Part shown: one piece after another, positions 34,177 through 38,518 of the stretch
How the letters are laid out: every line of letters begins with the position of its first letter
Numbering within the stretch: the stretch's first letter is position 1
Source: Flavobacterium inviolabile
GTDB lineage: Bacteria > Bacteroidota > Bacteroidia > Flavobacteriales > Flavobacteriaceae
DNA length: 64,000 nucleotides
NCBI RefSeq assembly: GCF_013389455.1
Contig: NZ_CP058278.1
Span: 2,542,001-2,606,000, forward strand
Reading direction: 5' to 3'
Program-made: the position numbers and the translations under genes
The notes under the pieces: generated by a model
Seen by the model: the letters and a program-made list of their open reading frames with translations, nothing else
Databases searched by the model: none
Told to the model about the DNA's origin: nothing

Positions 34177-35109
34177 ATGCAAGACGGAATTTACGCAAAA
34201 TTTAATACTACCAAAGGAGCTATTTTGGTAAAGTTAACGCATGATAAAACCCCTGGAACTGTTGGGAACTTTGTTGGTTTAGCGGAAGGGAATTTAGAAA
34301 ATGATGTAAAACCACAGGGAAAACCATACTATGACGGTTTAAAATTCCATAGAGTTATTGCCGACTTTATGATTCAGGGAGGTTGTCCTCTTGGAAGCGG
34401 TGTTGGCGGACCGGGATACCAGTTTGATGATGAATTTCATCCGGAATTGAAACACGATGTACCGGGAGTTTTATCGATGGCAAATGCAGGACCCGGAACA
34501 AACGGTTCTCAGTTTTTTATCACACACGTTGAAACACCTTGGCTGGATAATAAACACACCGTTTTCGGTCACGTAATCGAAGGACAGGATATTGTTGATG
34601 CTGTTGCTCAGGGTGATCTTATCGATAGCCTGGAAATCATCAGAGTAGGGGAAGAAGCTCAGAAATGGAATGCCATTGAAGCGTTCCGTACTTTTGAAGG
34701 TTCAAGAGAAAAACGTTTAGCAGAGCAAAAACGTCAGGCTGAAGAGGCTTTGGAAAAATTAGCAGCCGGTTTTGAAAAAACAGAAAGCGGACTGCGTTAT
34801 AAAATGATTCAGAAAGGAAGCGGGAAAAAAGCAGAAAAAGGTAAAATCGTTTCTGTACACTATTCCGGTTCATTAGAGAACGGAGCGATCTTCGACAGTT
34901 CATACAAAAGAAAACAGCCTATTGAGTTTCCATTAGGAAGAGGACAGGTTATTGAAGGATGGGATGAAGGTATTGCTTTATTACAGGTAGGCGATAAAGC
35001 CCGTTTTGTAATTCCGTCCTATTTAGGATACGGTTCCCGTGGTGCAGGTGGTGTTATTCCGCCGGATGCTACGTTGATTTTTGATGTAGAATTAATGGAT
35101 GTAAAATAG
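34177..35109 (+). CDS. Cyclophilin-FKBP fusion peptidyl-prolyl isomerase
   Basis: A 310-residue protein that joins two unrelated prolyl isomerase folds. Residues 1-165 are a cyclophilin domain ([32 protein letters not shown]). A charged helical linker follows (about 170-205), then an FKBP domain (about 215-310, [40 protein letters not shown]). No signal peptide, so probably a cytoplasmic folding catalyst. This fusion is known in Bacteroidota and some spirochaetes. Single-gene unit ending in a strong terminator. Confidence 0.95.
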
Positions 35110-35448: not shown

Positions 35449-35727
35449 ATGAAAAACAATAAAGACCTTAAAAAGCCTTTCTTTGCTAATTTCTTAGAGA
35501 ACCAATTGACAAACGAAGAGAAGAATTCTGTTCAAGGTGGAGATATCATAACTTTAAAAGCTACTGATACTTTACAAACATTAAAATACCCATCTGACAA
35601 CGAAGACGGACCTGGACCGGTAACTGTACCAAGATACGATTTATTACAAACTATGAAATATCCATCTGATAACGATGAAACCGGAGGGCCAATCCTTGAG
35701 CCTGGAGGACCGTTTACAGAGTTGTAA
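35449..35727 (+). CDS. Microviridin-type graspetide precursor with two cores
   Basis: A 92-residue ribosomal peptide precursor. The leader contains KKPFFANFLENQ (residues 8-19), matching the PFFARFLE helix that ATP-grasp ligases recognise, and a GG pair at 30-31. Core 1 is T44-L-K-Y-P-S-D50-N-E-D53; core 2 is T68-M-K-Y-P-S-D74-N-D-E77. By analogy with microviridin, ester links would join Thr44-Asp50 and Ser49-Glu52, and an amide Lys46-Asp53 (core 2: Thr68-Asp74, Ser73-Asp76, Lys70-Glu77). The Trp that follows TxKYPSD in classical microviridins is Asn in both. The ATG at 35449 is chosen over an upstream in-frame TTG because it gives the family leader length. Expected product: tricyclic serine-protease inhibitors. 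Confidence 0.93.
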   Translation: MKNNKDLKKPFFANFLENQLTNEEKNSVQGGDIITLKATDTLQTLKYPSDNEDGPGPVTVPRYDLLQTMKYPSDNDETGGPILEPGGPFTEL

Positions 35728-35740
35728 TTATAAGTTTAAT

Positions 35741-35781
35741 AGCAATGGCTTGTTTGACAAGTCATTGCTTTTTCTGTTTTT
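35741..35781 (+). terminator. Hairpin and T-run between precursor and ligase genes
   Basis: AGCAATGGCTTG-TTTGA-CAAGTCATTGCT (one mismatch) followed by a T-rich tract, ending just before the ATG of the first ligase. It would partly terminate transcription, giving more precursor than enzyme message. Confidence 0.75.
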
Positions 35782-35783
35782 AG

Positions 35784-36755
35784 ATGATATTATGTATAAG
35801 CCACAGTAATGATTTTTATACTATTGACATAGTAATTAAGCGATTAAAAGAATTAGGTAAAGAAGTTTTCAGGTTAAATTCTGATGAATTTTCCCATCAG
35901 CTGCAATTTGATTATTCCTGTGATTCACAGGAAGTTTCAGTGAGCATACAGCAGGGAGACCATTCTTTTACAGTAAAAGATATTGAAGCGGTTTATTACA
36001 GGAAGTTATGGAGGATTGCACTTCCCGATGATCTGGATGATTCGTTTAAAAATATTTATTTTCAGGAATATACCACAATGCGTAACCTGTTCTTTGCATC
36101 ACTCAAAGATGTTCCCTGGATGAACCCGATGGAACTCGATCACAGAATAGGAGAGAACAAACTGGAACAATTATCCTTTGCCCGTGAGGCAGGATTAATC
36201 ATTCCGGAAAGTCTTTTTACCAATGACCCGGATAAAGTAAAAGATTTCTTTTATTCGGTTTGTCAGGGGAATATGATAGCCAAATTACATGGCTCGTTAT
36301 CGCGCAGTATGAAAGGAAACACTCCTTTTTTTCCAACAACGCTCATTCAGGAATCCGATCTGGAACGATTAGACACTTTGCCCTATTGTCCGATGATTTT
36401 TCAGCGCAATATTGCGAAGCTGTATGAATTGCGGGTCATTTATATTGACGGTACTTTTTATACCGGAAAAATTAATGCTGAAGCATCGGAAGCCGGTAAA
36501 ACCGATTGGCGCGCGGCCAATGATATCAAGCCGTCCTGGGAGCCTTATGTGCTGCCGGATACCGTTTGTACCGCTCTGGATACGATGATGAAAAACATCG
36601 GTCTGTATTTTGGAGCAATCGATATAATCCGCCGGAAAGATGGCGATTATGTTTTTTTAGAAGTTAACCCACAAGGAGAATGGGGGATGATTCAGCGTGA
36701 TCTGGGATATCCGATCGGAGAAACCATCGCTGAAAAACTCATAGCAAGAATATAG
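35784..36755 (+). CDS. ATP-grasp peptide ligase, MdnB/MvdC (lactam-forming) type
   Basis: A 323-residue ATP-grasp ligase. It opens with ILCISHSNDFYTIDIVIKRL, as the MdnB/MvdC group does, and shares YYRKLWR, MVxKL-like MIAKLHGSLSRSM, YCPMIFQRNIAKLYELRVIY and the C-terminal EVNPQGEWGMIQRDLGYPI (about 298-316), where Glu/Asn bind Mg-ATP. In microviridin systems this enzyme forms the Lys-to-acid omega-amide after the esters are made. The gene follows the precursor after 56 bases, which contain the hairpin. The functional call is by remembered family resemblance, so the division of labour between the two ligases should be treated as likely, not proven. Confidence 0.9.
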   Translation: MILCISHSNDFYTIDIVIKRLKELGKEVFRLNSDEFSHQLQFDYSCDSQEVSVSIQQGDHSFTVKDIEAVYYRKLWRIALPDDLDDSFKNIYFQEYTTMRNLFFASLKDVPWMNPMELDHRIGENKLEQLSFAREAGLIIPESLFTNDPDKVKDFFYSVCQGNMIAKLHGSLSRSMKGNTPFFPTTLIQESDLERLDTLPYCPMIFQRNIAKLYELRVIYIDGTFYTGKINAEASEAGKTDWRAANDIKPSWEPYVLPDTVCTALDTMMKNIGLYFGAIDIIRRKDGDYVFLEVNPQGEWGMIQRDLGYPIGETIAEKLIARI

Positions 36756-36848
36756 TTTATAGAATTGCTTTTTTAAATCAGGAAATTATTAATAACTGTT
36801 ATATAGTGAACCTTATTGGCAAACGAGGCATAACATAAAAAAATATTT

Positions 36849-37868
36849 ATGGAAAAAGTATTGATTATTACGCATACTCTGGATAATGAATGTATTGATA
36901 TTGTTTCAAGAAAAATTAGAGAACACGGCGGTGAGCCGATTCGTTTTAATGTAGACGAATATCCTCTGAAATACGGTTTGAGCACCTGCTATGAAAACGG
37001 CGAGTGGAAAACATATCTTGATTATGAAGGAGAACGGGTATCCATTCATGATATTGCATCGTTATGGTACCGACGCAGCCATAATTTGGGTGGCCGTTTG
37101 GATACTGTTCTGGAAAGAGAATATCTGGGCAGTGTTTATGGCGAAATCCGCGCTACTTTTTTCGGAATGCTGGAAAGCATGAACTGTTTCCAGTTAGGGA
37201 AATACAGCAAATACAGACGTCTGGACAGTAAGGAAGAGCAAATGAAAATCGCAGCCTATCTGGGGATGAAAGTTCCGGAAAGCTGTATTACCAATAGCCC
37301 GGAAGAAGCAAAACGTTTTGTAAAAGACCATCCGGGAGGCGTTATCACAAAAATGCAGAGTTCTTTTGCCATTGAAAGAAACGGTGTTGAAAATGTTGTT
37401 TTTACCAACTTAATAAAAGAAGAAGACCTGGATAATATCGAGACGCTGCAATATTGCCCGATGCAGTTTCAGGAAAAATTAGATAAGAAAGTAGAATTGC
37501 GTATCACGATAGTTGGTGAGGAAATTTATGCTTTTGAAATCGATTCTCAAAAAATGGATAATGCCAAACTGGACTGGAGAAGGGAAGGTATTGAATTGCT
37601 GGAAGACTGGAAACCGTATGAATTACCGGCCGATCTGAGAGTGAAATTATTACAGATGATGGACATGTATGATGTGAATTATGGCGCCATTGATATTATT
37701 GTAACTCCGGATGATGAATATTATTTCCTGGAAATAAACTCGGCAGGAGAATTTTTCTGGTTAGACCGATTGTTGCCGGACAACCAGATTTCAGACCAGA
37801 TCGCGAAAGTGCTTTTAGGCAAAGCCAAACGCAGATACACACCGGTTTTTGAAGAAAGTTTAGCTTAA
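36849..37868 (+). CDS. ATP-grasp peptide ligase, MdnC/MvdD (lactone-forming) type
   Basis: A 339-residue ATP-grasp ligase similar to its neighbour. It resembles the MdnC/MvdD group more closely: VLIITHTLDNECIDIVSRKI at the start, SLWYRRSHNLGG (about 75-86), VITKMQSSFAIERNG (about 165-179), YCPMQFQEKLDKKVELRITI (about 205-224) and EINSAGEFFWLDRLLP (about 300-315). In microviridin pathways this enzyme reads the PFFxxFLE leader helix and makes the two omega-ester rings first. The 93-base gap after the first ligase holds no clear promoter, so I infer a single operon. The unit ends with a strong terminator. Confidence 0.9.
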   Translation: MEKVLIITHTLDNECIDIVSRKIREHGGEPIRFNVDEYPLKYGLSTCYENGEWKTYLDYEGERVSIHDIASLWYRRSHNLGGRLDTVLEREYLGSVYGEIRATFFGMLESMNCFQLGKYSKYRRLDSKEEQMKIAAYLGMKVPESCITNSPEEAKRFVKDHPGGVITKMQSSFAIERNGVENVVFTNLIKEEDLDNIETLQYCPMQFQEKLDKKVELRITIVGEEIYAFEIDSQKMDNAKLDWRREGIELLEDWKPYELPADLRVKLLQMMDMYDVNYGAIDIIVTPDDEYYFLEINSAGEFFWLDRLLPDNQISDQIAKVLLGKAKRRYTPVFEESLA

Positions 37869-37963: not shown

Positions 37964-38518
37964 ATGAACATGCGTTATTTAAGTTTTCTTCTTCTGTTTA
38001 CCTTTTTTACGGCGAAAGCCCAATTGCCTGCCCAGCATTGCGGATATGATTTTACGTCTTACCTGGTGCTGAATGTGCATGAAAACGGGAAAAAAGAAAA
38101 CATTAAAAATTTAAAGATCACTATTGCTGACGAATCCGGAAAGGAAATCATCAATGTCAACAATATCTATAGCTGGACAAACAGCAACAAGCCATTGGTT
38201 TTTTCATCCAACTATAAAATTGACGAAAACGGCAACCGGGTAACCGAAGAAGTAAAGGATCAGAAAACAAGATGGTTTTTTCCCTTTGCAAAAGACAATT
38301 ACCTGTTGTCTGTAGCGAACACGTTTCCGGCGGATAATTTTTTTATTAAAGTAGAGGATACAGACGGGGAAGCTAACGGCGGACGTTTTAAAACACAGTC
38401 TTTGCAGCTAAACAGCTTCAATATGTATGTTTTATGTTCGGCACAAAACGAACGTCAGGCGCAGCAATTCGGACCCAGAACGAACCGGCCGGTGGAAATT
38501 ATTTTAGAACGGGAGTAG
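37964..38518 (+). CDS. Uncharacterised secreted protein
   Basis: A 184-residue protein with a classical signal peptide (cleavage near TAKA-QLP, residue 19). The mature part is probably beta-sandwich, with a single early Cys (QHCGYDF) and one near LCSAQNE. I do not recognise the family. It has its own promoter and lies after the terminator of the graspetide unit, so although it is adjacent it is probably not part of that cluster. A protease or target of the peptide was considered, but no catalytic motif is visible. Confidence 0.75.
   Translation: MNMRYLSFLLLFTFFTAKAQLPAQHCGYDFTSYLVLNVHENGKKENIKNLKITIADESGKEIINVNNIYSWTNSNKPLVFSSNYKIDENGNRVTEEVKDQKTRWFFPFAKDNYLLSVANTFPADNFFIKVEDTDGEANGGRFKTQSLQLNSFNMYVLCSAQNERQAQQFGPRTNRPVEIILERE

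Follow-up and report, generated by a model that had tools for sequence, protein, structure and literature searches.

The closest described relatives of the system treated here are group-1 graspetides, the microviridins and chryseoviridins, in which a PFFARFL leader helix serves as the ligase-recognition element of the precursor (PMC8939145) and the core follows the motif TX1KYPSDX2D/EE/D (PMC5934393); the chryseoviridin motif, TxxxxDxxxTxKxPSDxD[DE], holds the residues of three lactone or lactam linkages (PMC8939145). We analysed a stretch of 64,000 nucleotides of Flavobacterium inviolabile (NZ_CP058278.1, positions 2,542,001 to 2,606,000; hereafter the window), part of a single-contig genome of 3,913,347 bases, in which three genes, all on the + strand, encode a 92-residue precursor with two cores and then two ATP-grasp ligases. 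Judged by its sequence, this cassette is a genuine, intact two-core group-1 graspetide (microviridin/chryseoviridin) cluster of the chryseoviridin branch. With a probability of about 0.72, we consider that it makes one exported, two-headed serine-protease inhibitor of that branch, with up to four bonds in each of two repeat units and eight in all.

The locus resembles several known systems and coincides with none of them. It shares with chryseoviridin (CdnA/CdnB/CdnC of Chryseobacterium gregarium) the arrangement TxxxxDxxxTxKxPSD, a double-glycine (GG) leader, the PFFxxFL helix, a CdnC-type ligase and a motif without Trp. Precursors of a Chryseobacterium metagenome-assembled genome (L022) and of six genomes from a second family within the order have a single TxKYPSD core and several TxxxxD modules in a row, whereas the window has one gene with two full cores; this contrast is drawn via these precursors rather than via the CdnA3 sequence itself. 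Moreover, core 1 of the window ends in ED, the flanking genes differ, and the alpha/beta hydrolase and epimerase flanks and several precursor genes of the Chryseobacterium locus were not found at the window locus. With the cyanobacterial microviridins (MdnA/B/C, MvdE/C/D) the locus shares the TxKYPSD core and the pairing of an amide-type with an ester-type ligase, but it is without Trp and has two cores, a GG leader and TxxxxD modules. AMdnA of Anabaena PCC 7120 (class II, multi-core) also has several cores per leader, to which it adds a quasi-core assigned one macrolactone (PMC5934393); unlike the window precursor, it has three cores, another spacing and a cyanobacterial origin. Class III microviridins or chitinoviridins (Chitinophaga) share with the window a Bacteroidota host, a GG leader and a microviridin-like end on a longer peptide (PMC13039773). 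In comparison with the chitinoviridins, taken by description only, the window has a second, internal core. Marinostatin presumably has the near-identical sequence TMRYPSDSDE, in which we take Ser to be esterified to Asp as predicted for core 2, and Arg to stand in place of Lys, hence no lactam. Its P1 residue is Met, as in core 2 (PMC9623506).

Identity and intactness of the cluster

The precursor matches NCBIfam NF033738 microvirid_RiPP (E 2.9e-21; 76 bits against a cut-off of 26; two stretches matched) and Pfam PF12559 Inhibitor_I10 (E 3.6e-15; 56.4 bits against a cut-off of 21). The best family of ligase 1 is TIGR04185 MvdC (379.7 bits vs 231.4 bits for TIGR04184) and that of ligase 2 is TIGR04184 MvdD (427 bits vs 254.4 bits for TIGR04185), and the MvdD pre-ATP-grasp domain PF21068 scores above its cut-off in these two proteins and in no other of the genome. 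The nearest relatives of ligase 1 in the PDB are AMdnB (7m4s; 250.1 bits) and 5ig8 (239.3 bits), which we take to be MdnB; those of ligase 2 are CdnC (7mgv; 420.9 bits) and, as runner-up, 5ig9 (259 bits), presumably MdnC. The probable likeness of ligase 2 to the dual-function CdnC rests on its score to 7mgv. Assignment to RimK-type ligases was ruled out: against the RimK family the two proteins reach 26.8 and 17 bits, Pfam RimK falls under its cut-off, and MvdC and MvdD are the best families. A first-pass annotation, made from the letters and open reading frames of the window, had described the precursor with its PFFANFLE-type leader and two TxKYPSD cores, followed by two ligases, and had called it a graspetide cluster with one amide-type and one ester-type enzyme. 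Each of these elements was recovered in place (Table 1), the family profiles agree with the call, and the comparison of ligase kinship that it proposed leads to AMdnB, MdnB-type, MdnC-type and CdnC proteins and not to RimK. A PDB sequence search with the precursor gave no relative recognisable by name among the 10 matches listed, of which the best had E 0.11, and among the matches listed in a literature search of titles and abstract beginnings, whose coverage leaves out most subscription papers, we found no published description of this cluster.

Table 1. Features of the graspetide cassette, in positions of the window
Feature	Position	Strand	Basis
Graspetide precursor, 92 aa, two-core, microviridin/chryseoviridin group	35449..35727	+	NF033738 and PF12559 matches
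Leader helix motif PFFANFL, residues 10-16, predicted ligase recognition	35476..35496	+	identical 7-mer in 51/103 distinct precursors
End of the leader at the double glycine of residues 30-31, where a C39 peptidase probably cleaves	35536..35541	+	sequence
T-x4-D module ahead of core 1, TLKATD (T35, D40), predicted to form an additional single omega-ester ring	35551..35568	+	core statistics and chryseoviridin motif
Core 1 TLKYPSDNED, residues 44-53, P1 Leu; predicted esters T44-D50 and S49-E52, amide K46-D53	35578..35607	+	microviridin homology
T-x4-D module ahead of core 2, TVPRYD (T59, D64), predicted to form an additional single omega-ester ring	35623..35640	+	core statistics and chryseoviridin motif
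Core 2 TMKYPSDNDE, residues 68-77, P1 Met; predicted esters T68-D74 and S73-D76, amide K70-E77	35650..35679	+	microviridin homology
Intrinsic-terminator-like hairpin between precursor and ligases	35741..35769	+	13-pair stem and T-run
MvdC/MdnB-type ATP-grasp ligase (ligase 1), 323 aa, predicted amide (lactam) former	35784..36755	+	best family TIGR04185
MvdD/MdnC/CdnC-type ATP-grasp ligase (ligase 2), 339 aa, predicted ester (lactone) former	36849..37868	+	best family TIGR04184

Open reading frame analysis finds all three frames open. Against the nearest cluster (L006), nonsynonymous divergence (dN) is 0.10-0.15 and synonymous divergence (dS) 2.3-2.5 for the ligases, and 0.22 vs 1.0 for the precursor, so that dN/dS is ~0.04 to 0.06 for the ligases, whose dS is close to saturation, and 0.23 for the precursor; of the four ligase dS values against L012 and L020, three were not computable. 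Because dN lies far under dS and the families match, the genes look functional, neither chance frames nor decayed ones. That the cluster is a decayed or unused remnant is scarcely credible, although the precursor is rare in the genus (9 of 299 genomes), no exporter is encoded locally and one relative (G111) has a stop inside both ligase matches: the open frames, the low dN relative to dS and the conservation of local gene order at 6 of 10 Flavobacterium loci speak against it, and decay was rejected on the dN and dS values.

Two repeat units, each with an added module

The precursor reads MKNNKDLKKPFFANFLENQLTNEEKNSVQGG / DIITLKATDTLQTLKYPSDNEDGPGPVTVPRYDLLQTMKYPSDNDETGGPILEPGGPFTEL, the break marking the GG end. 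It has the PFFARFL-like leader helix of group-1 graspetides, in the form PFFANFL, and the group-1 core motif TxKYPSDx(D/E)(E/D) twice. The leader ends in VQGG (residues 28-31) and is thus of the double-glycine kind known from class II/III microviridin precursors, in which GG marks the processing site (PMC8939145, PMC13039773).

Comparison was made with two sets of relatives: 68 homologous proteins at E<=1e-3, the window's own included, out of 78 candidates; and 103 distinct precursors, made up of these 68 and of others from fetched loci, one of which (L023) was missed by tblastn and found by pattern search. The precursors are relatives of the window, neither random nor independent, so that Fisher P values (for example, that of the P1 test below) overstate significance and the thinned sets alone address kinship. 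Cores were counted on the pattern [TSE]x[KRE][YFHAQ]PSD, which leaves more divergent cores uncounted. A GG lies within the leader region of 95 of the 103 precursors.

Each core of the window is preceded by a TxxxxD module, in the arrangement TLKATD-TLQ-TLKYPSD and TVPRYD-LLQ-TMKYPSD, with Thr 9 and Asp 4 residues ahead of TxKYPSD. Of 207 cores, 122 have this T(-9)/D(-4) pair and 23 the second most frequent T/D spacing tested; with the residues outside the cores shuffled 500 times, the pair was present at 2.5 +/- 1.6 cores (8 at most). After identity thinning, the pair is retained at 52/95 (70%), 20/42 (60%) and 10/23 (55%) cores, the shuffle control applying to the full set only. Core 2 TVPRYDLLQTMKYPSDNDE matches the chryseoviridin motif in full. 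Nineteen of the 103 precursors have one core together with two to four TxxxxD matches outside it.

These regularities suggest one extra single ester ring per unit, with the Lys lactam as a fourth bond. In the mechanism that we propose, the PFFANFL helix would activate both ligases; the CdnC-like ligase would close a single T-to-D omega-ester ring in each of the two repeat units [TxxxxD - xxx - TxKYPSDN(E/D)(D/E)], as well as two interlocking microviridin esters per unit, from T to the D of PSD and from S to the first acid; the MvdC-like ligase would join Lys to the second acid as a lactam; a C39 peptidase-exporter, its gene lying elsewhere in the genome, would cut after GG and export the product; and core 1, with Leu at P1, and core 2, with Met, would block two kinds of serine protease. 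The arrangement of the motifs predicts up to eight water losses and not six: for the GG-cleaved peptide of 61 residues, the predicted monoisotopic mass is 6488.184 Da with eight bonds and 6632.268 Da unmodified, a difference of 144 Da. The first-pass annotation had expected a tricycle, and the loss of three waters, from each core; the tricycle follows from microviridin homology and is kept here, but the TxxxxD module before each core had been overlooked, as had the GG leader end and the terminator-like hairpin after the precursor.

An unlikely alternative is that the product is a classical two-core microviridin only, with a tricycle per core and six bonds, in which TxxxxD is an unmodified spacer kept for, e.g., ligase docking or turn formation. 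The tricycle has structural precedent in cyanobacteria (PMC7823629), and the TxxxxD pair is not obligatory, since it is absent from 85 of 207 cores. However, the T and D are fixed while the residues between them vary, save for the Lys-Pro frequent at -8 and -7, a pattern expected where side chains are cross-linked; in chryseoviridin, linkages are assigned to this very motif (PMC8939145); and for the AMdnA quasi-core, TGKLRDE, the number of dehydrations and the GluC digestion of a mutant substrate led to the inference of a single macrolactone (PMC5934393).

Acid order, P1 residue and probable targets

Of the 104 internal cores, 56 have ED and 29 have DE as the acid pair that follows PSDx, vs 5 with ED and 78 with DE among the 103 last or only cores. 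The P1 residue, between T and K, is Leu in 49 and Met in 25 of the internal cores, vs Leu in 12 and Met in 67 of the last or only ones. Where the core is followed by a Gly-Pro or Asn-Pro tail (n=43), the pair is ED in 36, EE in 6, DD in 1 and DE in 0 cores; without the tail (n=164), it is ED in 25 and DE in 107. Thinning at 70% leaves 13 ED and 0 DE with the tail vs 13 and 51 without it; at 60% the counts are 5 and 0 vs 5 and 24, and at 55% they are 3 and 0 vs 3 and 13. The tail is a stronger predictor than internal position, because internal cores without it are mixed. The window obeys both trends, core 1 having Leu, ED and then GPGP, and core 2 having Met and DE. Taken with microviridin connectivity (PMC7823629), these acid orders therefore predict a Ser-Glu ester and a Lys-Asp amide in core 1 and a Ser-Asp ester and a Lys-Glu amide in core 2, in agreement with the acceptors named in the first-pass annotation.

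A reading that we regard as tentative, and on balance doubtful, is that position amounts to a code: internal cores (Leu-rich at P1, mostly ED, never DE before Gly/Asn-Pro) and terminal cores (Met-rich, mostly DE) would be two kinds of inhibitor head, told apart by a single ligase pair that would exchange the acids of the Ser ester and the Lys amide between them, each head having an extra TxxxxD ring, so that the product would be bispecific with up to eight cross-links. A position-dependent acid order was not found in the accessible literature passages on graspetides, a coverage outside which relevant subscription papers fall.

Precedents for the two P1 residues come from microviridin L, in which F5L gave better elastase inhibition and F5M an IC50 (half-maximal inhibitory concentration) of 0.09 umol/L on subtilisin (PMC7823629), and from marinostatin, which acts on subtilisin with Met at P1 (PMC9623506). 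By analogy with these, the Leu head may be directed at elastase-like and the Met head at subtilisin-like proteases. Elastase- or chymotrypsin-like targets had been proposed at first; Leu fits elastase, but it is for subtilisin that Met is documented in the sources just cited.

Bicyclic members of the family, such as marinostatin, exist in nature, and the cassette might likewise yield a partial, marinostatin-like product, in which the esters form and lactam closure fails, wholly or in part, in one core or in both (e.g. Lys-Asp of core 1), leaving bicycles and single rings. Core 1 does need the amide ligase to use Asp, and microviridin K gave no cyclic product when ring size was altered by even one residue (PMC12291112). 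We consider this outcome quite improbable: the cluster has a full-length MvdC-type ligase under purifying selection, Lys is retained in 122 of the 122 cores that have TxxxxD ahead, and the ED order is common (61 of 207 cores).

Several observations weigh against the two-headed, eight-bond product that we favour. Both ligases score under the NCBI equivalog cut-offs (379.7 vs 425 for TIGR04185; 427 vs 475 for TIGR04184). The cores that lack the T(-9)/D(-4) pair include 39 of the 83 first cores of multi-core precursors, and the pair is commoner at the last (64/83) than at the first (44/83) cores of such precursors. Core 1 TLKATDTLQTLKYPSDNED matches the chryseoviridin motif save for its acid pair, ED instead of D[DE]. 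Because of the ring-size intolerance of microviridin K, it is not guaranteed that one enzyme pair tolerates both acid orders. Finally, no C39 peptidase or exporter match was found at the cluster, so that the accompanying C39 transporter is missing there; such a transporter is a frequent but not obligatory neighbour of class II/III microviridin precursors (PMC13039773).

The residue after PSD

Asn follows PSD in both cores of the window, and the Trp that occurs in quoted cyanobacterial microviridin sequences (PMC7823629) is not present. Of the 149 cores in the 68 homologous precursors, 67 have Asn at this position, 31 Ser, 20 Gly, 11 Gln and none Trp; among the 207 cores of the 103 distinct precursors, it is Asn in 73, Ser in 46, Gly in 39, Gln in 22 and Trp in 2, both of the latter belonging to Taibaiella loci (L015, L016). 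The published motifs leave the position free (PMC8939145, PMC5934393), and Trp is therefore not defining for the group-1 family. Exchanges at positions 7, 9 and 11 of microviridin left inhibition standing (PMC7823629), and position 11 would, by the numbering, be the Trp. Since Asn is the commonest residue among relatives, Trp nearly absent and the position free in the motifs, Asn is ordinary here; the replacement of a conserved Trp, on which the first-pass annotation had laid its emphasis, does not set this cluster apart, and the idea of a Trp-to-Asn novelty was dropped on the counts of 0/149 and 2/207.

Genomic setting, distribution and expression signals

According to a Pfam scan of the immediate neighbours, the gene upstream of the cassette (34177-35109) encodes a cyclophilin-FKBP double prolyl isomerase fusion, beyond which lies an MFS transporter; the gene downstream (37964-38518) encodes a small protein with no Pfam match and a weak match to the radical SAM-associated lipoprotein family TIGR04134 (20.6 bits against a cut-off of 39.8). 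A cyclophilin-FKBP homologue (E<=1e-80) was found in 37 of 40 relatives; because it is present with or without the cluster, it is probably a mere neighbour. The precursor lies within 0.9 kb downstream of this gene in 6 of 10 Flavobacterium loci (L006, L008, L009, L010, L012 and L020). None of the three cluster genes was found in the corresponding stretches of seven genomes of the same genus; in six of these cluster-free relatives, the cyclophilin-FKBP gene and the homologue of the downstream gene are 0.1-1.2 kb apart, and no homologue of the downstream gene was found in the seventh. Because the flanks lie this close together without the cassette in 6/7 relatives, we regard the cassette as an accessory insertion that some members of the genus have at a single site.

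By NF033738 matches, which divergent precursors may escape, the precursor occurs in the 9 genus genomes mentioned above, this one included, and in 8 of 395 genomes of the phylum; the F. inviolabile genome has a single such gene. A strong MvdD-type match (>530 bits) occurs in the same 9 genus genomes, and 6 more have weak ligase matches only, of 109 to 134 bits. Both ligases and a precursor are present at 18 of the 18 loci L006-L023. In relative G111 (loci L066 and L082, on the contig labelled C39), one TAA lies inside both ligase matches, which may mean damage to this copy or a match that extends past the end of the gene.

The terminator-like hairpin between the precursor and the ligases has a predicted energy of -18.3 kcal/mol (z -4.47), a value that none of 200 shuffled sequences equalled, and the region has 6 sites of this type vs 2.0 +/- 1.4 in shuffles. 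The hairpin may keep the level of the precursor above that of the enzymes. A Bacteroidota-type promoter pattern has 5 matches in the window, none of them near the cluster (chance mean 5.86), and sigma-70-type matches number 17 vs 10.4 +/- 3.6, a figure that is uninformative for this phylum.

Other loci for modified peptides in the genome

The genome has three C39 peptidase matches elsewhere, each beside other genes resembling those of ribosomally synthesized and post-translationally modified peptides (RiPPs). At ~162200-170900 (L121), a grasp-with-spasm ATP-grasp protein (TIGR04192; 241.4 bits against a cut-off of 230) marks a second graspetide-type system, together with a SPASM maturase (TIGR04193; 322.8 bits against a cut-off of 175), a C39 exporter and a GG-containing peptide of 67 residues; a further ATP-grasp protein (178.7 bits, below the cut-off) lies ahead of that system. 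The exporter of L121 is a candidate to serve the peptide of the window in trans. At ~685 kb (L122:13297-14000) at least four peptides of 48-52 residues, two of which are identical, are encoded in tandem and resemble one another in their LVELND.QL..VNGG leaders; they lie at the end of the stretch examined, and a C39 exporter gene is ~4.6 kb away. At ~2.02 Mb (L123:4694-8598), an 84-residue GG-containing peptide is accompanied by a radical SAM/SPASM maturase-like protein (best family TIGR04463; 140.6 bits, below the cut-off) and a C39 exporter, and this gene content makes L123 another possible RiPP locus.

Implications

The cluster type is already known; what deserves testing is the extra ring modules and the dependence of acid order on core position. 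As the missing Trp is the rule among relatives, attention shifts to the added ring module and to the way in which acid order and P1 residue track the position of the core. The F. inviolabile system would thus suit the study of how ATP-grasp ligases choose between Asp and Glu acceptors, and of natural two-headed protease inhibitors.

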